Source of the DNA: Nodularia sp. LEGE 06071
Lineage (GTDB): Bacteria > Cyanobacteriota > Cyanobacteriia > Cyanobacteriales > Nostocaceae
DNA: 64,000 nt
Assembly: GCF_015207755.1 (NCBI RefSeq)
Contig: NZ_JADEWH010000007.1
Coordinates: 1-64,000 of the forward strand
Direction of reading: 5' to 3'
The notes under the pieces were generated by a model. That model worked only from the letters and a program-made list of their open reading frames with translations. It was not told the origin of the DNA and did no database searches. Below, one piece after another: positions 25,916 to 39,404 of this stretch. Within the stretch, counting starts at the first letter, position 1. Every line of letters begins with the position of its first letter. The translations under genes and the position numbers were made by a program.

Positions 25916-26629
25916 TTGTTATCTCCATCTCTCGATTTCACCTCAATTTCACCTTTGTGGCTGCAAATTACCGTAGTTGCAGTTTGGGTATCACTCATCC
26001 TCCTGGTCGCATGGGTAGTACATCGCTTTGCTCAGGGCGATCCCGAAATAGTCAGAAAAATAGTTCACATTGGCACTGGGAATGTAATTTTGCTGGCTTG
26101 GTGGCTCGATGTTCCGGCTAGTTTAGGGATTACAGCGTCCATTGTCGCCAGTGCCATCACCTTACTATCATACCGATTTCCCCTCCTTCCCGGTATTAAT
26201 AGCGTGGGTAGGCAAAGTTTGGGAACCTTCTTTTATGCTGTCAGTATGGGCATTTTAATTGCCTGCTTCTGGCATATACAACAGCCCCAATACGCCGCTA
26301 TCGGCATCATGGTGATGGCTTGGGGTGATGGGTTAGCAGCATTGATTGGGCAGCGTTTTGGTAAACATAAGTATCAAGTCTTGGGAGCGCAAAAAAGCTG
26401 GGAAGGCTCCTTGACGATGGCTTTAGTCAGTTATCTGATCAGTAGTTTAATTTTATTGAGTGTTGAAGGTAACATCTGGCAAACTTGGGTAATATCCCTA
26501 GCGATCGCTTTCGCTGCTACTAGCTTAGAAGCCATTTCATTTCTGGGTATTGATAATTTAACAGTTCCTTTAGGCAGTGCAGGCCTAGCATTTGTGTTAA
26601 TTGATATCTTCTTGCACCATTCCCCATAA
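25916..26629 (+). CDS. Phytol/polyprenol (dolichol) kinase-like integral membrane protein
   Basis: The 237-residue protein has about six to seven hydrophobic helices and the conserved stretches REPEATED in CTP-dependent lipid kinases: RKIVHIGTGN near the N-terminus, WGDGLAALIGQRFGKHKY, and KSWEGSLTMAL. These place it in the VTE5/dolichol kinase/CdsA-related family. In cyanobacteria the VTE5-type enzyme phosphorylates phytol released from chlorophyll for tocopherol synthesis. That function is likely but not certain here. The frame begins with TTG at 25916. No ATG occurs before the conserved region, and no clear ribosome-binding site is seen, so the exact start is unsure. Confidence 0.8.
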   Translation: MLSPSLDFTSISPLWLQITVVAVWVSLILLVAWVVHRFAQGDPEIVRKIVHIGTGNVILLAWWLDVPASLGITASIVASAITLLSYRFPLLPGINSVGRQSLGTFFYAVSMGILIACFWHIQQPQYAAIGIMVMAWGDGLAALIGQRFGKHKYQVLGAQKSWEGSLTMALVSYLISSLILLSVEGNIWQTWVISLAIAFAATSLEAISFLGIDNLTVPLGSAGLAFVLIDIFLHHSP

Positions 26630-27031
26630 CCGAATAGCACTAAGATAAGCTAAAACCTCGTCAGGGCAGGGTGTGGGAGGTGTGGGAGGTGTGGGCGTAG
26701 CCATATCTCAAAAGTGTCCACCTAACAAATGATGACAATAGTTAGTATTTTTCACAACCTTAATTTTTAGCAATTACAGTCAAGCGATCGCCAGGACAGA
26801 TCATGCAAAACTCGATTATTTGATGACATAGCCGTAAAACCTGGAATATTGTCAGTTTATTTTCTCAAGGTATGAGTTTGGCAGCAAAAAAATTAGACTT
26901 TATATCTACTTTGAGGAGTAAATATACAACATTGATTTCTATCTAGGGATTTATGAATTCCTCACAAACAGTGCTTATAGTTAAGTTCTTAGGTGGTCAC
27001 AAACCTATGTACGTAAGTGAGGCTAACAATC
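26630..27031. other. Gap upstream of the bacteriocin-type locus
   Basis: About 400 bases. GGTGTGGGA is repeated three times in tandem at 26670-26697. The rest is A/T-rich and presumably contains the promoter of the first precursor gene. AAGTGAGGCTAACAATC immediately before the ATG at 27032 is shared with the other precursor genes and includes the ribosome-binding site. Confidence 0.5.
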
Positions 27032-27358
27032 ATGTCACATGAAATATTTGCATCAGAATTGTTTGTTACTTTATCTGATGATCAACAGGAGCTTTTAGCT
27101 GGTGGTGCTGACTTTGAACTGGCTGGTAGCAACTTCGGTCAAAAACGTGCCAACTTACAAGGAACAAGTAATGCCGGGCCAAATGGCAGCACTGCCAACT
27201 CTACAGGTGATGTTACAGCTATCAATACCGCTGCACAAGACTTGTTAGGATTTGGTGCGGACGAAATTCCTTCAATTGATGCCTTGGGTGCTGCACCAGT
27301 TCTTAACAGTGGTAGTGCTGGTGGTGCTGGTGGTGCTGGTGGTGAAGATGAAGGTTAA
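27032..27358 (+). CDS. Precursor peptide 1, double-glycine leader (CTB-family bacteriocin type)
   Basis: The 108-residue protein starts MSHEIFASELFVTLSDDQQE and reaches a double glycine at residues 24-25, a leader that C39-peptidase exporters cut after GG. The core is long, Gly/Ala/Asn-rich and acidic, with NTAAQDLLGFGADEIPSIDA and an end of repeated GGA and EDEG. It is a close paralogue of the next gene (same core pattern). The ATG at 27032 is preferred over a GTG at 27017, because GTGAGG between them is the conserved ribosome-binding site in all members of the set. NCBI calls such cyanobacterial peptides 'CTB family bacteriocin'; this is from memory. No Cys is present in the core. Confidence 0.85.
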   Translation: MSHEIFASELFVTLSDDQQELLAGGADFELAGSNFGQKRANLQGTSNAGPNGSTANSTGDVTAINTAAQDLLGFGADEIPSIDALGAAPVLNSGSAGGAGGAGGEDEG

Positions 27359-27752
27359 TCAACTAAACCATTTAAAAGATTCCTACAGTTGATCCGAAAA
27401 GCTGATCTGTCACATTCAAGCGTTTCACCCATCTCAGTAGGAAATGGTGCATGGGGGTGATTCACCGAATCAGCAGGGCAATTTTGTATTCCTTCCCCTA
27501 CCCAAAAACTGCAATTATGATCTCGAATAGCTGAACTATTGCAGAGATCAGCCTGGTTAGTTTTCCCAGGAACTTTGGTGGCGCTGAACTAATTAAGCAC
27601 TTTGGGTTTCTTTTTCTCAGGCGTGGAAAGTAGGCTGAAATTCCAGAATTTTCTTGCCAGTTGATTTTGACTGCATAGGTCAGCAAAACTGCATCAACAA
27701 GTTAGGATCTGGAATCTGTTGTTTAAGAATTACGTAAATGAGGCTAACAATC
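27359..27752. other. Gap between precursor genes 1 and 2
   Basis: About 390 bases with no coding frame supported. Its last 65 bases (from about 27688, AACTGCATCAACAAGTTAGG onward) resemble the bases before precursor gene 3, a sign that gene and upstream region were duplicated together. Confidence 0.5.
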
Positions 27753-28046
27753 ATGACAGAGCATATCGTATCAGAATTCTGTGTCGCGTTATCCGACGAG
27801 CAACAAGAACTCGTAGCTGGTGGTGTTGACTTTGAACTAGCTGGAAGCAATTTTGCTAACAGACTGGCAAATTTACAAGGAACAGCCAATTCTGGCCCAG
27901 ATGGTAGCACTGCCAACTCCACAGGTCAGTTGACAGCTGTTAACACTGCGGCACAAGATTTATTGGGATTTGGTGCAGAGGAAATTCCTGAAGTTGATGC
28001 TTTGGGCGGCGCACCAGTTCTCAACGCCACAGGTGGTGAGGAATAG
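27753..28046 (+). CDS. Precursor peptide 2, double-glycine leader (CTB-family bacteriocin type)
   Basis: The 97-residue protein starts MTEHIVSEFCVALSDEQQEL with GG at residues 23-24. The core repeats that of peptide 1 with few changes: VDFELAGSNFANRLANLQGT, then GSTANSTG, NTAAQDLLGFGAEEIPEVDA and an end ATGGEE. It lacks the GGA-repeat tail of peptide 1. The pair is clearly a tandem duplication. A start 15 bases upstream (27738) was rejected because the conserved ATGAGGCTAACAATC upstream box overlaps it. Confidence 0.85.
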   Translation: MTEHIVSEFCVALSDEQQELVAGGVDFELAGSNFANRLANLQGTANSGPDGSTANSTGQLTAVNTAAQDLLGFGAEEIPEVDALGGAPVLNATGGEE

Positions 28047-28489
28047 ACATCTGGTGACAAAGAATGTAGAGACATTCCATGAACGTCTCCATAAGGGTTC
28101 CAGATAAAGGATATTTAATTTTCACCAATCCGGTCTAGTAGTCTGTCAATTTCAAATTCACGGGTCAGCAAACTCTCAACATGACTTTGACAAAGTACTA
28201 GATAAATCTGCAATTGCTATCTGGAATAATTGATGATTGCACAAGTAACTGTGTTTATTGTCTCCAGCTGGCAGTGAATTATCTGGTTCCTGACTCAACA
28301 TTTGCGCCAGAACGGATTCCAGAGCTTGAATGTGTGATTCATGTTTGCACAACTTGATTATTTAGCTGAATACTCAGGATAAACTGCATCCACAAGACAG
28401 TTTCTGGAATCCTTTATTGGAGAATTATCTAAATGAGACTAACAATCGCCAAATCACATTGGAGTAGATTGTCAGTGAGGCTAATAATT
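28047..28489. other. Gap between precursor genes 2 and 3
   Basis: About 440 bases without a supported gene. The end (28381-28447) matches the region before gene 2 and includes a first copy of the upstream box (ATGAGACTAACAATC at 28433). A second copy (GTGAGGCTAATAATT) lies directly before the ATG at 28490. The box is therefore doubled here. Confidence 0.5.
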
Positions 28490-28780
28490 ATGTCAGATCA
28501 AATCATCACATCCGATTGGTTTGCAGAGTTAGAATTGTCCGATAGACAGCAGGAGTTGCTGGTTGGTGGTGTTAACTATCAACTGAACGATAACAATTTC
28601 GCTCAAGGATCTGCAACAAAGAAAAACTCAAGTAATAATAGTCCAGAAGGAAACTCTTCTGAATTAAATACTCAGCTTGCTGATGTAAATTCTAATGCCA
28701 CAAGTTTTTTGTCTAATGAACCTACAGAATTTCCGGCTCTTGCCAACTCGGAAGAACTAAATCAATTCAATACTGAGTAG
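28490..28780 (+). CDS. Precursor peptide 3, double-glycine leader, divergent core
   Basis: The 96-residue protein starts MSDQIITSDWFAELELSDRQ with the cleavage GG at residues 26-27 (QELLVGG). The core is Asn/Ser-rich and polar (VNYQLNDNNFAQGSATKKNS, later FPALANSEELNQFNTE) and only faintly resembles peptides 1 and 2 in its N-x-F-A and L-x-D-V-N positions. A start at 28433 would add 19 residues that contain the doubled upstream box, so ATG 28490 is preferred. Confidence 0.8.
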   Translation: MSDQIITSDWFAELELSDRQQELLVGGVNYQLNDNNFAQGSATKKNSSNNSPEGNSSELNTQLADVNSNATSFLSNEPTEFPALANSEELNQFNTE

Positions 28781-29343
28781 AAATTTGGCAACATCAAGAT
28801 TTACGTTTTCTGCCTCTATCTAAACTTTAGACATTAGCCTTGATTTTGCTGGACTATAAAAGTTTTCCTGTGGTTTATAAAATTTTTGGCGTTGCATCTG
28901 AAAAGGGGGGAGAGGAGATAGTTATCACTCGCTCAACGTAAGTGAGGTCTTTGAGAAAGTTTGAGCATTCTCCTCTGTTGTTTCTACGCGTTATCCACGT
29001 TAGATACATGAGAAAGGTGATTGCCGTACATAGCTGACTCCTTTCTCTATCCCCATTTTTAATTATATAACATCATAAACCATGTTGTTGGCTAAGGTTA
29101 GCATCATATGTTACAGTTTCAATTTTTGTCCCAATATTTGACAAGTTATTCATGGCTTTGCTGATGTCTTGATTCTCAATCTTTAAGGTAAATATTTCTA
29201 TTTATGGAAGATTTGAAGGATATTTAGCCAATCAAAAATCTGAGCTTAGTCACTCGATGACGGCAACTTCAGATTCCTAATTAACAGACACGATCTGAAA
29301 TAACCCGATTCATCTATCCAATTCAAACCCAAGGTACAGTACA
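28781..29343. other. Gap between precursor gene 3 and the exporter genes
   Basis: About 560 bases. At 28936-28947 the string ACGTAAGTGAGG matches the upstream box of precursor gene 1 (ACGTAAGTGAGGCTAAC), but no ATG or leader follows. It may be a decayed precursor site. The rest is probably the promoter and leader of the exporter operon. No gene was found. Confidence 0.45.
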
Positions 29344-30861
29344 GTGAACTCCTTTCCCCAACAAGATAACCATTTTTGGAATCGGTTTAACGAACCTACT
29401 CCAGAAGAACTGAGTTTAGTTGAACCTCACGAGTTTCTTCCCCGCATCAGTAAATGGACAAACATCGGCGCAGGAGTTCTGCTGATTACTTTTATGGCGG
29501 CGGCTGGACTCACATCTGTGTTTAATTACAATGTCACAGTCAAAGTTCCTGCGAGTATTAGACCAGAAGGAGAACTGGGAATTGTGCAGTCTGCGGTAAT
29601 TGGAACAGTGCAGAAAATAGATGTGCAAGAAAATCAGCTAGTCAAACAAGGAGAACCCATTGCTTACATTGATGATTCCCGCCTGCAAAATCAAAAAAGC
29701 CAACTAGAAAACAGTATTGAGCAGAGTCAATTACAACTGCGCCAATTTGATGCTCAAATCGCTGAAATTGCTACTCAGATTGCGGCTCAAAGAACCTTAG
29801 CTAACCGGACAATCATTGCTGCACAAGCAGAACTCAGTGCGAGTCAACGCAACTATGAAGACCAGCAAAAGACGACAATGGCTGATCTGGCACAAGCCGA
29901 AGCTGCTTGGAATTTAGCGAGAATACAACGCGATCGCCTTCAACAGAATAACCTATTAACTGCAACAGTACAAGAAGCCGAAGTAGCTTTAAATGTAGCG
30001 AAAATGCAACGCGATCGATTACAGTCAGTAGTCGCATCCGGAGCAGTTTCTCGCAATTTATTTGAGGAAAAACAACAGGAGGTAAAATCCGCCCAGGCCA
30101 AGCTAGAACAAGCCAAAGCTAGCGCTCAGGACTTGATGTCAGAAAAAGAACAATCCTTGCAGATTGCCCAAATCCAACTCGAAAAAGCTCGCACCAGTAT
30201 CAATCCTCATAATGCCGCTATCACCATAGCCTCAGAACGCATTAAACAAGAGCAAGCCAGTGGTGAATCGACCTTAGCCGCTTTAAACAGAGAACGAGAA
30301 ACCCTACTGCAACAGCGTCTAGAACTAGAAAAACAAAGTATGCGATCGCGCAAAGAACTACAACAGGTAGAAACTGACCTGAATCAAACTATAATTCGAT
30401 CGCCAATTACAGGTACAGTGCTGCAATTAAATCTGCGTCATCCTGGGCAAGTAGTAGAACCAAGTCAAGCTATTGCTCAGATTGCACCCGTCAATAGTCC
30501 AATGGTGATCAAAGCATTTGTCCCGCCTCAAGATATCGACAAAGTAAAACCTGGGCAAAAAGTACAGATGCAGGTTTCAGCTTGTCCCTATCCCAACTAC
30601 GGTACTCTCCACGGGACAGTGAAAAATGTTGCACCAGATGCCCTCCCAATCGGAAATAACAGCGCCGAGCCTGGTGTTCCAGGTGCTACCCAGACAGTCG
30701 GCTATGAAACCACCATAGAAGCCGAAACCAATTATGTAGGTACAGACAATCATCAATGTTATATCCAAGCAGGAATGAAAGGTCGAGCTGATATTATTTC
30801 CCGACAGGAAACAGTACTGAATTTCATTCTCCGCAAAGCCCGATTAATCACAGATTTCTAA
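29344..30861 (+). CDS. HlyD-family periplasmic adaptor of a peptide exporter
   Basis: The 505-residue protein is a type I secretion adaptor. It has a short cytoplasmic N-terminus, one transmembrane helix (about residues 37-60, NIGAGVLLITFMAAAGLTSV), a lipoyl/barrel half (VPASIRPEGELGIVQS through EPIAYIDDSRL), a long alpha-hairpin coiled coil (about 110-345), the second lipoyl half (IIRSPITGTVLQLNLRHPGQ) and a beta-barrel. It links the inner-membrane ABC exporter to a TolC-like outer-membrane channel, which is not in this window. Translation starts at GTG 29344; no ATG is nearby. The C39 exporter gene follows after 93 bases of short repeats. Confidence 0.92.
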   Translation: MNSFPQQDNHFWNRFNEPTPEELSLVEPHEFLPRISKWTNIGAGVLLITFMAAAGLTSVFNYNVTVKVPASIRPEGELGIVQSAVIGTVQKIDVQENQLVKQGEPIAYIDDSRLQNQKSQLENSIEQSQLQLRQFDAQIAEIATQIAAQRTLANRTIIAAQAELSASQRNYEDQQKTTMADLAQAEAAWNLARIQRDRLQQNNLLTATVQEAEVALNVAKMQRDRLQSVVASGAVSRNLFEEKQQEVKSAQAKLEQAKASAQDLMSEKEQSLQIAQIQLEKARTSINPHNAAITIASERIKQEQASGESTLAALNRERETLLQQRLELEKQSMRSRKELQQVETDLNQTIIRSPITGTVLQLNLRHPGQVVEPSQAIAQIAPVNSPMVIKAFVPPQDIDKVKPGQKVQMQVSACPYPNYGTLHGTVKNVAPDALPIGNNSAEPGVPGATQTVGYETTIEAETNYVGTDNHQCYIQAGMKGRADIISRQETVLNFILRKARLITDF

Positions 30862-30882
30862 GCAACCCCCATCACAAAACTT

Positions 30883-30950
30883 AATTACGAATTACGAACT
30901 ACGAATTACGAACTACGAATTACGAATTACGAATTACGAACTACGAATTA
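30883..30950. repeat. Heptanucleotide tandem repeat (AATTACG/AACTACG)
   Basis: About ten 7-base units alternate AATTACG and AACTACG between the adaptor and exporter genes. This is a short tandemly repeated repetitive (STRR) sequence of the type typical of heterocystous cyanobacteria. Confidence 0.9.
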
Positions 30951-30954
30951 AATT

Positions 30955-33123
30955 ATGTTTGGTTTAATCAAACTTCAAAAAACCTATCAATGCGTTTCAC
31001 AGTTGAGCGAAGAAGATTGTGGAGCAGCTTGTCTGGCTTCTATTTGTAAACATTACGGCCGATTTTTAAGCATTAATCGCAGTCGAGAATCCGTAGGAAC
31101 TGGACAACTAGGAACTACTTTATTAGGACTAAAACGTGGTTCTGAGAATTTGGGTTTTAATACTAGAGCAGTTAAAGCCTCGCCAGAAATTATCGACAGA
31201 ATCACAGAAGTGCAGTTACCAGCCATTATCCATTGGCGCGGTTCTCACTGGGTGGTTTTATATAACCAGCAGGGCAAAAAGTATGTGATTGCTGACCCAT
31301 CTGTGGGTATTCGTTATGTTAACCGCAAAGAGTTAACAGAGGCTTGGAATGGGGTAATGCTCTTACTGGAACCAGATCCAGACCGCTTTTTTGATCAGCC
31401 CCAAGACAAACCAATGGGTGGTTTCGGACGCTTTCTGAAGCGGATTTTGCCCTATCGTGGTTTGCTGACTCAGGTTTTAATGCTCAATGTTGCTTTGGGT
31501 GTACTCGCTTTGGGTTCTCCCATACTCATCCAAATTCTCACAGATGATGTTTTAGTGCGGGGAGATGTCCAGCTACTGACTGTTGTCGTCGCCGCAGTTG
31601 TAGTTATGACCTTATTTAGCAGCACTCTCCAATTATTGCAATCGACGATGATTGCTCACTTTGGTCAACGGCTGCAATTAGGGCTTGTTTTGGAATTTGG
31701 GCGCAAAATGCTCCAGTTACCTTTGAATTATTACGAAGCCCGCCGGAGTGGGGAAATCACTAGCCGATTACGAGATATCAATCATATTAACCAGTTGGTA
31801 TCACAGATAGTTGTGCTTTTACCGAGTAAGTTTTTCATTGCAGTGATTTCCTTCTGCTTAATGCTGTTTTATAGTTGGAAACTCACATTAGCAGTTATCC
31901 TGGTCGGTGCTTTAATGACTTTATCAACTCTGCCTTTTTTACCTATTCTCCAACAAAAGACTCGCAGTCTTTTAGTCTTGGGGGCGGAAAATCAAGGTGT
32001 GTTAGTTGAAACCTTTAAGGGCGCACAGGTACTTAAAACTACGAACGCTGCACCCCAATTTTGGGAAGAATTTCAAAGTCGTTTTGGTCGTTTAGCTAAT
32101 CTGACTTTTAGTACTGTGCAAATCGGAATTATCAACAATACTCTTTCTCGACTCCTTTCGACTATTGGTGGTGTAGCTTTATTGGGGTTTGGAAGTATCT
32201 TGGTGATTCAGGGAGAATTAAGTATCGGTCAAATGCTGGCTTTTAATGTGCTACAGGTGAATGTTCTGAGTTTAATTAATTCCTTAGTGGGTTTAGTAGA
32301 TGAATATTTTCGCTCTCAAACAGCAGTTTCTCGGCTTTTAGAAGTGATTGATGCGACACCGGAAGTGGTGGGAGGGAGTGAAAAGCCTGTGGCGCAAATT
32401 TCCGGTAGTGCAGATATTCATTGTTCTCATCTGACATTTCACCACCCTGGTAGAGTGGACTTATTAGAAGATTTTTCCCTAAAGTTGCCTGGTGGTCAAG
32501 CGATCGCTTTGATTGGTAAATCTGGCTGTGGTAAAAGTACCTTAGCCAAACTGTTAGCAGGTTTATATCAGCCGAATTCTGGGAATATTCGCATTGGCTC
32601 GTTTAACCTCGATGACATCGCTCTCGATTGTCTGCGACAGCAAATTGTTTATGTCCCCCAAGAACCTCATTTCTGGAGTCGCACAATTTTAGAGAATTTC
32701 CGGTTAGGAACGCCCTATATCTCCTTTGAGGAAATTGTCAAAGCTTGCGAGATTGCGGATGCAGATAGCTTTATCAGTCAACTTCCCAGTAAGTATCAAA
32801 CTGTGTTAGGCGAATTTGGGGCGAATCTCTCTGGTGGACAAAGACAAAGATTAGCGATCGCTAGAGGAATTATGACTAATCCACCTGTGCTAATTTTAGA
32901 TGAAGCCACAGCCGGACTCGACCCAGTTAGTGAAGCTAGCGTTTTAGATGCAATTTTGGACTACCGCAAAGGTAAAACTACAGTTTTAATTACTCATCGT
33001 CCCAGCGTTGTCAAGCGAGCTGATTGGATTGTGATGTTAGAGAAAGGTGAAGTGCAATTAGAAGGTACTCCAGAAACTTTTCTGGCAGAAAAAGGAGAGC
33101 ATCAAAAGTTTTTATCATTATGA
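30955..33123 (+). CDS. Peptidase-C39 ABC exporter (bacteriocin/RiPP processing and secretion)
   Basis: The 722-residue protein has three parts. The N-terminal C39 peptidase has the catalytic Cys22 in SEEDCGAACLAS, His98 in GSHWVVLYN and Asp114 in IADPSVG. The membrane domain (about 165-440) has six helices. The C-terminal ATPase has Walker A GKSGCGKS, signature LSGGQRQR and Walker B LILDEATAGLD. Such PCAT proteins cut double-glycine leaders and export the core peptide in one step. All catalytic residues are present. Seven leader peptides lie on both sides of it, which fits a single exporter handling several substrates. It continues the operon with the HlyD gene. Confidence 0.96.
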   Translation: MFGLIKLQKTYQCVSQLSEEDCGAACLASICKHYGRFLSINRSRESVGTGQLGTTLLGLKRGSENLGFNTRAVKASPEIIDRITEVQLPAIIHWRGSHWVVLYNQQGKKYVIADPSVGIRYVNRKELTEAWNGVMLLLEPDPDRFFDQPQDKPMGGFGRFLKRILPYRGLLTQVLMLNVALGVLALGSPILIQILTDDVLVRGDVQLLTVVVAAVVVMTLFSSTLQLLQSTMIAHFGQRLQLGLVLEFGRKMLQLPLNYYEARRSGEITSRLRDINHINQLVSQIVVLLPSKFFIAVISFCLMLFYSWKLTLAVILVGALMTLSTLPFLPILQQKTRSLLVLGAENQGVLVETFKGAQVLKTTNAAPQFWEEFQSRFGRLANLTFSTVQIGIINNTLSRLLSTIGGVALLGFGSILVIQGELSIGQMLAFNVLQVNVLSLINSLVGLVDEYFRSQTAVSRLLEVIDATPEVVGGSEKPVAQISGSADIHCSHLTFHHPGRVDLLEDFSLKLPGGQAIALIGKSGCGKSTLAKLLAGLYQPNSGNIRIGSFNLDDIALDCLRQQIVYVPQEPHFWSRTILENFRLGTPYISFEEIVKACEIADADSFISQLPSKYQTVLGEFGANLSGGQRQRLAIARGIMTNPPVLILDEATAGLDPVSEASVLDAILDYRKGKTTVLITHRPSVVKRADWIVMLEKGEVQLEGTPETFLAEKGEHQKFLSL

Positions 33124-33153
33124 CAATTTACCCTGGTGTGAGCAAGTAAATTC

Positions 33154-33465
33154 ATGTCTGAAAATCATACATCAAACAATTCATTTTTTTTGCAAAGTCT
33201 GACTGAAGCAGAGCAAGAAAGCCTAACTGGTGGGCAAGGGGAAGGTATACTAGGAACCAGTAATTTTTTGTTTCAGAAAACTGACATTCAAACTGAGGCA
33301 GACAATAATTTAAACCTTGCCAAAGATGAATCGGGTTCCCAAACTACTAAGTACAATTTGTCACAGATTACTATGGCATCATCTATAACGTTTGGATTAC
33401 CAAATCCTAGTTCTAATAGTAATAGCATAAATGATTTTATAGCTAAAGTTATCAGTGGATTATAG
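33154..33465 (+). CDS. Precursor peptide 4, double-glycine leader, Asn/Ser-rich core
   Basis: The 103-residue protein starts 30 bases after the exporter stop. Its leader MSENHTSNNSFFLQSLTEAE ends at QESLTGG (GG at 26-27), a more diverged form of the shared leader. The core, QGEGILGTSNFLFQ at its start and ending NDFIAKVISGL, has no Cys and a hydrophobic C-terminus. GTGAGCAAGTAAATTC before the ATG is a weakened form of the box found before the other precursors. It is probably read from the exporter transcript. Confidence 0.8.
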   Translation: MSENHTSNNSFFLQSLTEAEQESLTGGQGEGILGTSNFLFQKTDIQTEADNNLNLAKDESGSQTTKYNLSQITMASSITFGLPNPSSNSNSINDFIAKVISGL

Positions 33466-34026
33466 GAATCCGGTTTGATTTATGAAAAAATTAAGTATTG
33501 TAGGGTGTGTTCAAAAATCAAATATTAGTCCTATAGTTTCTTGAATAATCTTAATATATTAGGACTTACGCAATAACTCTCTGAAACCTTCTTTCCTTTG
33601 TGTTCTTTGTGTCCTTCTCCCAAAGGGATAGGCTAGCGCCAATGCGGTTCGTTTTTTCATGATTTTGCGTAAGTCCTGTATATATATGGCAATTCGTCTA
33701 GTTTTCCTATTTTTATAATCAGCAAAAAAACTTAGCTTTTCAATTTTGCAAATTATCTGGAGAAAAATCAAATCTTCTCTCATTGCCAGGTAAACATTAC
33801 TGGCTGAGATACTCGATTTTTTTAAGAAGTCGGGTATTTTTGTTCTTCTTTAGGATTGTTATTTATGAAAATAAACAAAGAGAAATAAACTTGCTTTCAT
33901 GAGTCTAAAGAAATAAAATTTTTTGATATTTTTCTAACTTAAGAACAATTTAAATAATTGTCTAATAGTTAATAATAAAAACACAGGTGATTCCACACCT
34001 ATATTAAGTAAGTGAGGCACAAAATT
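33466..34026. other. Gap between precursor genes 4 and 5, with an inverted-repeat element
   Basis: About 560 bases. It contains the small inverted-repeat element at 33561-33677, a hairpin-like GATACTCGATTTTTTTAAGA region at 33808-33832, and the upstream box GTAAGTGAGGCACAAAATT before gene 5. No coding frame is supported. Confidence 0.55.
33561..33677. mobile_element. MITE-like element with 13-bp terminal inverted repeats
   Basis: The 117-bp element starts AGGACTTACGCAA and ends TTGCGTAAGTCCT, perfect inverted repeats. Its inside holds two common cyanobacterial repeats (CTTTGTGTTCTTTGTGTCC and TTCTCCCAAAGGG...CGGTTCG). The AGGACTTACGCA end is known from Nostocales MITEs. The flanks are A/T-rich and no target duplication is obvious. 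It does not code. Confidence 0.8.
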
Positions 34027-34260
34027 ATGTCATTCCAAATCACCAAAACTGATTTGTTTGAAGAGTTATCCGCAGAACAACAAGAGCTTTTATCTGGCGG
34101 AGAAAATGGATTTGGTCAAGGAAATGGATTTGGCCAAGAAGATGGATTTGGCCAAGAAGATGGATTTGGCGGTTCTCAACCTAGTAATGGTGGCGATTCT
34201 CAAAGCCGTGTTCGCCGTATTCCCATCCGCTTGACCGGTATTCTTGAAGTTGTTAAATAA
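34027..34260 (+). CDS. Precursor peptide 5, double-glycine leader, GFGQ-repeat core
   Basis: The 77-residue protein starts MSFQITKTDLFEELSAEQQE with GG at residues 24-25. The core opens with four GFG units (three followed by Q, with E-D or G-N between) and ends with a basic/hydrophobic segment, SRVRRIPIRLTGILEVVK. The R-I-P-(I/V)-R motif also occurs in peptide 6. A GTG at 34012 lies inside the conserved upstream box and was not used. The repeated GFGQ units are encoded by nearly identical 18-base DNA repeats, so the number may vary between strains. Confidence 0.85.
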   Translation: MSFQITKTDLFEELSAEQQELLSGGENGFGQGNGFGQEDGFGQEDGFGGSQPSNGGDSQSRVRRIPIRLTGILEVVK

Positions 34261-34424
34261 TAATTGAGTATTACCATGATTTCAACTTCGCCATAGTCTT
34301 GTTTAATTAGCCAATATTTTTTACGGTATGAGGTAAAACTTAAACCGTAATTTCGCACCCACCCAGAAAAATTTCTGGTATGGGTGCTACCTAACATTTA
34401 TGTCCTAGATTGAGGCAACAAATT

Positions 34425-34655
34425 ATGTCACAACAAATCATTCAACCTGATTTATTTGTCGATTTATCCCCAGAGTCACAAGAACTGATATCTGGGGGTC
34501 AACAATTACAATTAGGTGGACAAACTAGACCTGATATTACCGTTATTGGTACTCTCATTGATTCTAGCGGTCAACGTATCCCTGTTCGGATTTTTGGCTT
34601 TGCTGCTGGACCACCTAGCGGCGGTGGCGGACCTTTTGGTGGTGGCGGTTTCTAA
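34425..34655 (+). CDS. Precursor peptide 6, double-glycine leader, Gly-rich C-terminus
   Basis: The 76-residue protein starts MSQQIIQPDLFVDLSPESQE with GG at residues 24-25. The core has QQLQLGGQTRPDITVIGTLI, SGQRIPVRIFGF and a Pro/Gly end, GPPSGGGGPFGGGGF. The upstream box TTGAGGCAACAAATT precedes the ATG. A TTG start 15 bases earlier is not favoured. It lies 164 bases after peptide 5, and a terminator follows. Confidence 0.85.
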   Translation: MSQQIIQPDLFVDLSPESQELISGGQQLQLGGQTRPDITVIGTLIDSSGQRIPVRIFGFAAGPPSGGGGPFGGGGF

Positions 34656-35164
34656 TAGCGCCGGGGAAGAAGTCTCCGACTAATCATTAAATACCTTGAA
34701 ACCTAACTAAACTATCCTTTCTTGTACAAAACAAATGAGATGCTCATCACCTTTCTCCTATGAGGAGAGAGGTTTTTTAAGTTATTTTGTATTTAATAAA
34801 ATATGCTTTCAGATTTATTGTCTGCCTCTTCCTGAAGATGTAAATAATTATTTGATTTTATCAGCATATTTTTTGAACTGGAGTTAAAGACACTCCTGAA
34901 AATCAAGAATAAAATTCAAAATTCAGATTAAATTAATTGAAATTTAAGATCATGATTTTTTGCTCATGTTCAGGAAAACTTATATTTGAATTAAAACTAA
35001 ATTCTGCATGAGTCAAAAGATGTATTTCTTAGGGTATTTATTTATAACTATGGGGCAATTTAATCATTAGAAAATACGTTTAGAAATAAAAGCACAGGTA
35101 CAACACTTCCATATTTGTTTGAAGTATGTGTGTACCAGCTATGGACAAATTTGAGGTGAAAATT
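34656..35164. other. Gap between precursor genes 6 and 7
   Basis: About 510 bases, A/T-rich. It has the terminator at 34749-34778, then probably a separate promoter for gene 7. No coding frame was recognised. Confidence 0.5.
34749..34778 (+). terminator. Rho-independent terminator after precursor gene 6
   Basis: ACCTTTCTCCT pairs with AGGAGAGAGGT (11 bp with one G-T pair, 3-base loop) and is followed by TTTTT. It probably closes the transcript of precursor genes 5-6 and separates gene 7 as its own unit. Confidence 0.8.
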
Positions 35165-35380
35165 ATGTCAGTTAAAGACCTTCAATCTGATTTGTTGATA
35201 GATTTATCCACAGAGGAACAGCAGCTTGCCTCTGGTGGCTACGGCTACGGTGGCTACGGTCGCGGCTGGGGAAGACCCGGTTTCGGTTACGGTGGCTGGG
35301 GTAGAGGTGGCTTCGGTCGAGGTGGCTGGGGTTACGGTGGCTTTGGTCGAGGTGGCTTTGGTCGAGGTGGCTGGTACTAG
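35165..35380 (+). CDS. Precursor peptide 7, double-glycine leader, Gly/Arg/aromatic core
   Basis: The 71-residue protein starts MSVKDLQSDLLIDLSTEEQQ with GG at residues 24-25. The 46-residue core uses only six amino acids: 25 Gly, 6 Arg, 6 Tyr, 4 Trp, 4 Phe and 1 Pro, in units such as GYGGYGRGWG and GRGGFGRGGW. Without the leader it would pass for a Gly-rich low-complexity protein; the leader and the upstream TTTGAGGTGAAAATT box tie it to the export locus. Such a cationic aromatic chain could bind membranes, RNA or polysaccharide, or assemble. No function is known. A start at 35126 would add 13 residues upstream of the box and is not preferred. Confidence 0.85.
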   Translation: MSVKDLQSDLLIDLSTEEQQLASGGYGYGGYGRGWGRPGFGYGGWGRGGFGRGGWGYGGFGRGGFGRGGWY

Positions 35381-35466
35381 TAATGTGCCATTCGCCTATA
35401 CTTACCTGACAGCTCAATTTAGGGAGTTGACGACATTAAAAAGCCTGCCCCCCGCAGGTTTTACGA

Positions 35467-35495
35467 AACGAAGCCCGTGGGGGCTTCGTTTTTTT
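35467..35495. terminator. Strong hairpin terminator between convergent genes
   Basis: AACGAAGCCC pairs with GGGCTTCGTT (10 bp, 4-base loop) followed by TTTTT. A second small stem (CCTGC...GCAGG) at 35444-35458 precedes it. It ends the transcript of precursor gene 7; on the other strand it follows the hydrolase gene and could act in both directions. Confidence 0.85.
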
Positions 35496-38939: not shown

Positions 38940-39404
38940 TTATAAAGAATTGGTATGACGCTTGAGTACAAAAGATGCGCTGAGAGTGCCGAGGGCAAGT
39001 AAGCTAAAGATGGACGAGGGTTCAGGGACAGTGATTGGAGAAAGTTGATTTCCCGATATTTGAGTCCCTCCGGGTGGGAAGCTCGATATTCCGACACCAC
39101 CGGAACCGAACAGTATTGGGTTAACAGTGCTGGAATAAGAAAAAATCGGCCCTATATCAAGAACACAAACCTTCGAGATAAGATCAGGCTCATTCCCAGT
39201 ATTATCAGCATCATTCCCATTATGATCAGCATCATTCCCAGGATTATCAGAATAATTGCAAAAAGAATCATTCGGCGGAATCAAAGCATCATTGCAAACT
39301 GCTGTATCAGGAACGCAAGCAGCAGATGCGGCTTGCATTGTCCCGAACATCAATCCCGATGTGACGGCGAGGGCTGTAGCAAATAGTAGAGATAGATGTT
39401 TCAT
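38940..39404 (-). CDS. PEP-CTERM sorting-domain protein with Asn/Asp-rich repeats
   Basis: The 154-residue exported protein has an N-terminal signal peptide (MKHLSLLFATALAVTSGLMF, cleavage after AASA near residue 28) and a C-terminal PEP-CTERM tag: VPEPSS, a hydrophobic helix (IFSLLALGTLSASFVL) and basic KRH. Exosortase recognises this tag, often in species making extracellular polysaccharide. The middle carries DNPGNDADHNGNDADNTGNE repeats. No exosortase is in the window, but the polysaccharide locus starts just beyond. The function of the middle part is unknown. Confidence 0.88.
   Translation of the reverse strand: MKHLSLLFATALAVTSGLMFGTMQAASAACVPDTAVCNDALIPPNDSFCNYSDNPGNDADHNGNDADNTGNEPDLISKVCVLDIGPIFSYSSTVNPILFGSGGVGISSFPPGGTQISGNQLSPITVPEPSSIFSLLALGTLSASFVLKRHTNSL

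Follow-up and report, generated by a model that had tools for sequence, protein, structure and literature searches.

One C39 exporter, positional classes of double-glycine precursors and a coupled pair of small proteins in Nodularia: a possible export locus for extracellular structural proteins

How does a single exporter come to serve seven precursors whose cores hardly resemble one another, and what might such a set be for? The question is raised by a locus at positions 27032 to 35380 of a 64,000-nucleotide stretch of the 5.58-Mb genome of Nodularia sp. LEGE 06071 (contig NZ_JADEWH010000007.1, positions 1 to 64,000), the whole of which is referred to here as the window. On the plus strand, three genes for small precursors with a double-glycine (GG) leader, a gene for an HlyD adaptor, a gene for a C39 peptidase/ATP-binding cassette (ABC) exporter and four further GG precursor genes follow one another (Table 1), and all seven precursors named in a preliminary description of this DNA were located in that arrangement. 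The catalytic Cys22, His98 and Asp114 of the exporter, also described there, are present, and a Pfam C39 domain was found (residues 11-142). The GG lies at residues 23-24 in gene 2, 24-25 in genes 1, 5, 6 and 7, and 26-27 in genes 3 and 4, and the cores are 46-83 residues long. We found that these cores belong to classes that keep their place relative to the exporter gene: class A (genes 1 and 2) and class B (gene 3) before it, class C (gene 4) directly behind it, and a variable tail (genes 5-7). Most loci either retain both A and C or lack both, a pattern that suggests that the two are partners.

Do the seven genes form one set of precursors? A leader profile of 19 columns, built from the seven window leaders and used at a threshold of 8 bits, matched 317 of the 10,583 open reading frames (ORFs) of the window and 80 exporter loci, and none of 21,166 shuffled or reversed decoys. 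Within the window exactly seven leaders matched, and the next-best ORF scored 4.7 bits. When each leader was left out in turn, genes 1, 2, 3, 5, 6 and 7 scored above every decoy (13.5-25.7 bits); gene 4 failed (0.3 bits, with 349 decoys equally high), and it is taken as a precursor because its relatives occupy the same place in other loci. The motif as first written out is loose for genes 2 and 4. In the stretches fetched from the same genome, which has nine C39 matches, leader matches adjoin the window exporter and a paralogue on contig C10, in agreement with the earlier view of one exporter with several leader-sharing cargoes; they also occur at two orphan places, and none surrounds the five other strong C39 exporters. 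The C10 locus (L168, C10:70217-75875) is a second locus of the CTB family (the family of genes 1-3), with four precursors, then a C39 exporter 62% identical to that of the window, then HlyD; its precursors have Thr/Ser-rich cores. On contig C1 (L169:11059-12510), two repeated pairs of small GG precursors with other leader types lie about 5-6 kb from a C39 domain.

Related loci were the best 80 of 293 from one scan with the exporter as query; the sample favours close exporters because it was chosen in this way, and several loci are cut by contig ends. Core classes were assigned by profiles that took the window and five close loci as their seed; the iteration ran on the same set. The 317 precursors were thereby sorted into 106 of class A, 14 of class B, 50 of class C, 18 like gene 6, nine like gene 5, seven like gene 7, and 113 others. 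Every member of A (106/106) and of B (14/14) lies upstream of the exporter, and every member of C (50/50) lies downstream, each as the first precursor there and one per locus. Copies of class A number one to seven per locus. In the 57 loci with exporter identity of at least 77%, window included, there are 1 to 12 precursors (median 4), and seven or more in 11; the exporter of a Nodularia metagenome-assembled genome (L051) is 96% identical to that of the window. The idea, put forward in the preliminary description, that one exporter handles a combinatorial mix of cargoes is accordingly rejected: across the 80 loci the classes go by position, and A and C go together. The accompanying observation that the cores are very unlike one another does not apply to all of them. 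By hhalign, class B (gene 3) proved to be a relative of class A (probability 89.9%, E 1.7e-6), and a short tail, which reads R-I-P-x-R-x-x-G in the window, is common to the classes of genes 5 and 6 (probability 45.8%, E 2e-4).

How firm is the link between A and C? In 80 scorable loci, window included, both classes are present in 50, A only in four, C only in one and neither in 25 (Fisher's test, P = 1.6e-15, phylogeny not removed). Here L062 and L107, in which tblastn found an intact C, were recoded as having it, and L112, whose contig starts at the exporter, was dropped for A. The 25 loci with neither include eight in a distant exporter clade and L117, which is short and distant, all without any such precursors; leaving out precursor-free loci gives 50, 4, 1 and 16, and the close loci (77% or more) give 40, 1, 0 and 16. 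The exporter tree requires at least 11 changes in A and 12 in C. Among the 16 close loci with neither class, A remnants stand in the expected place in six (L064, L065, L068, L076, L120 and L084; tblastn E 8e-4 to 3e-18), with stops in L064, L068, L076 and L120 and as partial matches in L065 and L084, and C remnants are found in two, L072 (E 3e-9) and L120 (E 2e-4), L120 being the only locus with both by tblastn. Short A stubs are seen in L057, L084 and L089. Fifteen of these 16 loci keep tail genes; therefore, the export machinery and the remaining cargo can persist where A and C are gone.

The pair also recurs elsewhere. Of 12 further class C regions, seven had been chosen for a C listed close to an A and five had not; by profile, A and C stand together in eight, namely 7/7 of the former and 1/5 of the latter. 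A second layout, A..A-C-exporter-HlyD, is found in L175, L176, L178, L180, L181, L183 and one block of L177, and in L179 four A genes and one C gene stand in a fetched stretch of 18 kb that has no exporter. In the other four regions, L182 and L185 have C with unlabelled GG precursors, L184 is an apparent false C match and L186 holds a lone C fragment. These data bear on the possibility that the link between A and C merely reflects the association of each with the exporter, without joint action, a possibility compatible with the other readings discussed here. The position of C close behind the exporter gene in the first layout speaks for it, as does the borderline outcome of the phylogeny-corrected test given below. 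Against this, loci that keep the exporter and tail genes can have A and C jointly missing or reduced to remnants, and the pair turns up again in a second gene order and, in one case, with no exporter close by. We consider mere association with the exporter unlikely.

Across 192 sampled genomes of the cyanobacterial family, 148 were positive for the NCBIfam model NF038167 ('CTB family bacteriocin') at E 0.001, 136 of them above its curated cut-off. A class C match was found in 104, all 104 also NF038167-positive (E 0.001), and at least one of these (G049) looks a false match on reading. In a sample of the phylum, class C occurred in 32 of 386 genomes, two of them outside the family, and the first scan had also placed it in Acaryochloris loci (L108, L111, L112, L113 and L116). 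Do the CTB genomes without class C count against the pairing? Twelve CTB regions from such genomes were read. In eleven of them the CTB-like ORFs carry an ELSxxELxxVAGG-like leader; the twelfth, L196, has no such ORF, and a close relative of the window exporter is missing from all 12 stretches (the L188 stretch was cut short by a contig end). On these 12 regions the genomes were rejected as counter-examples, and the EQQEL leader type, the window exporter type and class C therefore tend to go together. The members of this other CTB subfamily (L187-L195, L197 and L198) are present in one to six copies, often in tandem.

The tail behaves differently, varying independently of A and C. Tested against A, it gave P = 0.32 (0.4 to 0.3 by independent contrasts). 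The last tail gene is often Gly/aromatic-rich or His-rich (30 of the 45 loci that have two or more tail genes), and its repeats change between close relatives. Among 131 downstream cores other than class C, 54 have at least 20% Gly, 66 at least 12% aromatic residues and 30 at least two Cys. These observations suggest that a single C39 exporter can serve two modules of cargo, each with a history of its own.

To which known families do the precursors belong? Against NF038167 (cut-off 32 bits), genes 1, 2 and 3 score 87.8, 85.2 and 44.4 bits, and genes 5, 6 and 7 remain below the cut-off at 24.8, 26.0 and 14.1 bits. Gene 4 has no NCBIfam match at E 1, and none of 44 class C cores matches any NCBIfam or Pfam family. 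A search for relatives in the PDB by sequence gave none at E 1. No curlin-like Pfam match was found for the seven precursors (E up to 1) or the 44 class C cores (E up to 0.01). An AlphaFold2 run with these 44 cores models the class C core as one long beta hairpin, with strands at residues 7-27 and 33-53, plus a helix at the C terminus; the pLDDT averages 79.7 and reaches 85-95 over residues 11-50 in blocks of ten.

Might some cores be altered after synthesis? The preliminary description had noted no enzyme for ribosomally synthesized and post-translationally modified peptides (RiPPs) in the locus, and we likewise saw none in the ORF list or by Pfam of the larger neighbours; a peptidase-less ABC transporter and LanM are also missing from the cluster (ORF list for 24-39 kb and the same Pfam searches). 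The exporter scores 448.2 bits against TIGR03796 (NHLP/NHLM), below the cut-off of 853.3. Modification in trans, by an enzyme encoded elsewhere and compatible with the other readings, would concern some cores, for instance that of gene 7, whose Gly/aromatic repeats recall the Gly-rich radical S-adenosylmethionine (rSAM) RiPPs GrrA/OscA1. Gene 7 matches TIGR04260 (GrrA) weakly, at 21.2 bits (E 3.3e-4) below a cut-off of 31, and the genome encodes one SPASM-type rSAM protein (C1:17522). Unlike GrrA/OscA1, however, gene 7 has a GG leader with a C39 exporter, and GrrM (TIGR04261), the rSAM partner of the GrrA-like family, has no match in the genome at E 0.001; GrrM-dependent modification of gene 7 was rejected on this ground. 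Moreover, the composition of the tail cores is very diverse, as would be expected of bulk properties rather than of a site for one enzyme. Maturation in trans is thus distinctly improbable in our view.

The anatomy of expression again sets class C apart. In a comparison of 296 precursors, a TAAxTGAGGxxAAxAAT-like 5' element just before the ATG is common to classes A, B and the tail, and is missing from class C (43 of the 296). In the window, besides the one before precursor 1, element-like copies end at 27752, 28489, 34026, 34424 and 35164, and none precedes precursor 4. The distance from the exporter stop to the start of class C has a median of about 30 nt (49 cases, -4 to 198). Terminator-like hairpins in the region number 13 against 7.6 expected from shuffles (sd 2.9), a modest excess. 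From this anatomy we infer that C is probably made with the exporter and the other precursors from their own units. Upstream of genes 5 and 7 a block of the type ATTTAA/ATTTAAT ... AATAAAA ... AGGT is found, in varying form, in the window and in six relatives, and the same set has conserved hairpins at 33980-34026 (AGGTG/CACCT) and 35090-35140 (GGTACxACAC/GTGTGTACC). Covariation in them is almost nil (1/6 pairs before gene 5, 0/9 before gene 7); they are possibly an operator or leader RNA.

Is the locus a mobile arsenal or a settled part of the chromosome? We compared 7-kb flanks with those of the other 56 close loci. YidD was shared by 39, a protein without a Pfam match (25916-26629) by 42, an alpha/beta hydrolase by 34, an AhpC/TSA-type protein by 19, and an AA-kinase, which we take to be pyrH, and ribosome recycling factor by 27 each; the remaining recurrent ORFs overlap known genes. 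Therefore, the locus is a fixed chromosomal feature in much of the group. The cores are under purifying selection: dN/dS, estimated from two or three pairs of close relatives each, is 0.26-0.31 for the A and C cores, 0.16-0.56 for all cores and 0.07 for the exporter. A conserved immunity gene was sought and rejected, since outside known genes, overlapping ORFs and flanks no window ORF of at least 45 aa recurs in three or more of the 56 loci; the search started from window ORFs, and immunity genes absent from the window were not sought.

These results bear on the reading suggested by the names in use, namely that the cores are bacteriocins secreted to antagonize related cyanobacteria, a number of them being released together so as to broaden the range of targets. 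The family is named accordingly, and loci of this kind are already in print as bacteriocin clusters (Wang, Fewer and Sivonen 2011, PMC3140520; this and the other papers are cited for the accessible portions of their texts). In Nodularia spumigena, the CTB genes of one cluster, but not those of another, increase when phosphate is limiting, and the authors read those of strain CCY9414 as allelopathic (PMC9846622). Four plasmid regions carry exporters 59-65% identical to that of the window, two with LanM, one with microviridin enzymes and one without an annotated modifying enzyme, and they therefore show what modifying-enzyme loci among related exporters look like; in L199, L200 and L202 the related exporter stands beside LanM or microviridin ATP-grasp enzymes. 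Against a bacteriocin role we set the want of a conserved immunity-like ORF, as seen from the window ORFs, a dN/dS well below 1 (few pairs) and the same chromosomal neighbours in most loci. In addition, the functional precedent found among cyanobacterial GG proteins concerns biofilm. Bacteriocins are, to our mind, an unlikely explanation. In the accessible passages that use the CTB name the role is inferred, and no antimicrobial assay is reported there. We hold it very improbable that the cores, whole or in fragments, act as pheromones and that A and C signal jointly: the cores are long for this, A occurs in one to seven copies, and no further receptor-like gene is conserved beside the locus (flank comparison; Pfam of seven neighbours).

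In its layout, the locus corresponds to group III of Wang et al. It has a short C39 ABC exporter without the N-terminal CAP_ED extension (the C39 match begins at residue 11 of 722), an adjoining HlyD, several GG precursors (3.89 per cluster on average in that group), no second ABC transporter and no LanM. Unlike the very little core conservation given for group III, the cores here form positional classes with a coupled A/C pair. Genes 1-3 fall within NF038167 as curated, unlike genes 4-7, which score below its cut-off or have no match, and class C is in neither NCBIfam nor Pfam; the model also spans the ELSxxELxxVAGG-like subfamily (11 of 12 regions), with no close relative of the window exporter in any of the 12 stretches read. 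The nearest functional precedent is in Synechococcus elongatus, where a C39 exporter (PteB) and HlyD likewise serve several small GG proteins. EbfG1-4, exported by PteB, are needed for biofilm (PMC4997328, PMC9981879), and secretion of EbfG is reduced when the Cys of PteB is mutated (PMC4997328). EbfG2 assembles into amyloid-like fibrils, and EbfG4 is found on the surface and in the matrix (PMC9981879). A matrix or surface role has been seen there, whereas the window locus is known from its genes; mature EbfG is reported to be without homologues among the proteins of other cyanobacteria (PMC4997328). The curli proteins CsgA/CsgB, to which EbfG1-3 and EbfG4 have been compared (PMC9981879), offer a working analogy for the proposed many-copy subunit and single minor partner, beta-rich and secreted; they differ in export route, and the window precursors have no curlin match in the Pfam scans. 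In the literature searched, with subscription papers largely outside the search, we found no description of class C or of the A/C pairing. So far as searched, the positional classes, the unannotated class C, the coupled pair and the independent tail module are new.

What, then, might the locus do? We propose that this chromosomal locus exports small structural proteins to the outside of the cell by a type-I-like route, and that an A/C module assembles a matrix or surface layer and a tail module accompanies it, and we give this about an even chance of being right. The C39 domain would cut each precursor after the GG, and the ABC/HlyD conduit would export the core, as follows from the established behaviour of such exporters and from the PteB precedent. 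The first module would be a partner pair of class A, with its relative B, each gene with its own ribosome-site element, and class C, encoded by one gene directly behind the exporter gene. A many-copy A together with a single-copy, exporter-coupled beta-hairpin C is what would be expected of a bulk subunit and a minor partner; outside the cell, the two may co-assemble as a matrix or surface layer. The second module, genes 5-7, would supply fast-changing Gly/aromatic, acidic, basic or Cys/His-rich peptides, probably separately transcribed, that tune the layer. Cleavage, secretion, A-C contact, assembly and the matrix role are thus all put forward here from gene content. The purifying selection, the fixed chromosomal address, the lack of a conserved immunity gene and the EbfG/PteB precedent favour matrix or surface over toxin, and the biological role, which the preliminary description had left among toxin, signal and matrix, is in this sense narrowed, matrix or surface proteins being likelier than toxin or signal. 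In a bolder version, an extracellular beta-fibre or surface layer widespread among cyanobacteria would have A as its major subunit and C as its minor one, for nucleation or anchoring, and the tail peptides would be lineage-specific modifiers; this we offer only tentatively, as possible and rather doubtful.

Several points weigh against the structural proposal. First, after correction for phylogeny the A/C pairs are 5.3 concordant to 0.1 discordant (median P = 0.06), and in the other direction 5.8 to 0.2 (median P = 0.03); by the counts given above the link is strong, and with phylogeny taken into account it is borderline. Second, A occurs without an intact C in four loci, L092 (with a C remnant), L106 and the pair L118/L119 with identical exporters, and L123 has C without a labelled A. 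Ten of the 16 close loci with neither class have no clear A remnant (tblastn E 8e-4 or better); of these ten, two have only short stubs and L090 only a doubtful match. Third, the class C model has a pTM of 0.47, a strand-periodicity test gave nothing significant for A or C, and sequence homology between A and C was sought and none was detectable. Fourth, the same leader is carried by two orphan precursors at other places in the genome (C6:86879-87085 and C4:50104-50250), without a listed C39 match nearby. Finally, no experiment on the family was found, and its database name is 'bacteriocin'. The core of one orphan precursor is rich in Gly, Tyr, Asp and Cys, and that of the other has a stretch resembling gene 6.

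The features of the locus are collected in Table 1. In front of gene 3 lies a second, degenerate precursor 5' element with an in-frame ATG (28433-28489), in which a longer ORF of precursor 3 begins at 28433. Precursor 5 contains an 18-base tandem repeat. Between the HlyD and exporter genes, the heptamer AATTACG is repeated in tandem 9.7 times (30883-30950); the only match to a known RNA family in the locus falls within this repeat (30890-30939), far below the gathering score, and was rejected. A small PEP-CTERM protein is encoded on the minus strand at 38940-39404 (TIGR02595, above cut-off).

Table 1. Features of the export locus, in window coordinates.
Feature	Position	Strand	Remarks
5' element (TAAxTGAGGxxAAxAAT-like) before precursor 1	27013..27031	+	window upstream regions and comparison across 296 precursors
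Precursor 1, class A (CTB family)	27032..27358	+	108 aa, leader 25 aa; NF038167 E 3.8e-25; leader profile 33.4 bits
Precursor 2, class A (CTB family)	27753..28046	+	97 aa, leader 24 aa; NF038167 E 2.6e-24; leader profile 35.3 bits
Precursor 3, class B (diverged CTB)	28490..28780	+	96 aa, leader 27 aa; NF038167 44.4 bits; class B related to A
HlyD-type periplasmic adaptor	29344..30861	+	505 aa; Pfam HlyD_3 E 4.7e-21; TIGR01843 match below its cut-off
Short-type C39 peptidase/ABC exporter	30955..33123	+	722 aa; Pfam Peptidase_C39, ABC_membrane, ABC_tran; Cys22, His98, Asp114
Precursor 4, class C	33154..33465	+	single copy, first after exporter, 30 nt past exporter stop; core modelled as long beta hairpin
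Terminator-like hairpin between precursors 4 and 5	33806..33840	+	hairpin scan
Precursor 5, tail module	34027..34260	+	acidic/Phe-Gly-Gln repeat and RRIPIRLTGILEVVK tail; leader profile 32.6 bits
Precursor 6, tail module	34425..34655	+	DITVIGTLIDSSGQRIPVRIFGF and Gly-rich end; leader profile 34.5 bits; tail resembles that of precursor 5
Terminator-like hairpin between precursors 6 and 7	34749..34773	+	hairpin scan
Precursor 7, tail module	35165..35380	+	Gly/Arg/aromatic repeats; leader profile 30.1 bits; GrrA-like match below cut-off
Terminator-like hairpin after precursor 7	35465..35492	+	hairpin scan

If A and C are indeed partners in a matrix or surface layer, a large family annotated as toxins would be misnamed, and its reach would be wide, with CTB 'bacteriocin' matches in 148 of the 192 sampled genomes of this cyanobacterial family. 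On the bolder version, a C39 peptidase channel hitherto read as a bacteriocin exporter would export structural material, and class C would be an unnamed minor subunit of it. The building of protein layers by filamentous cyanobacteria would thereby become open to gene-by-gene test, with class C as a clean target for a knock-out.

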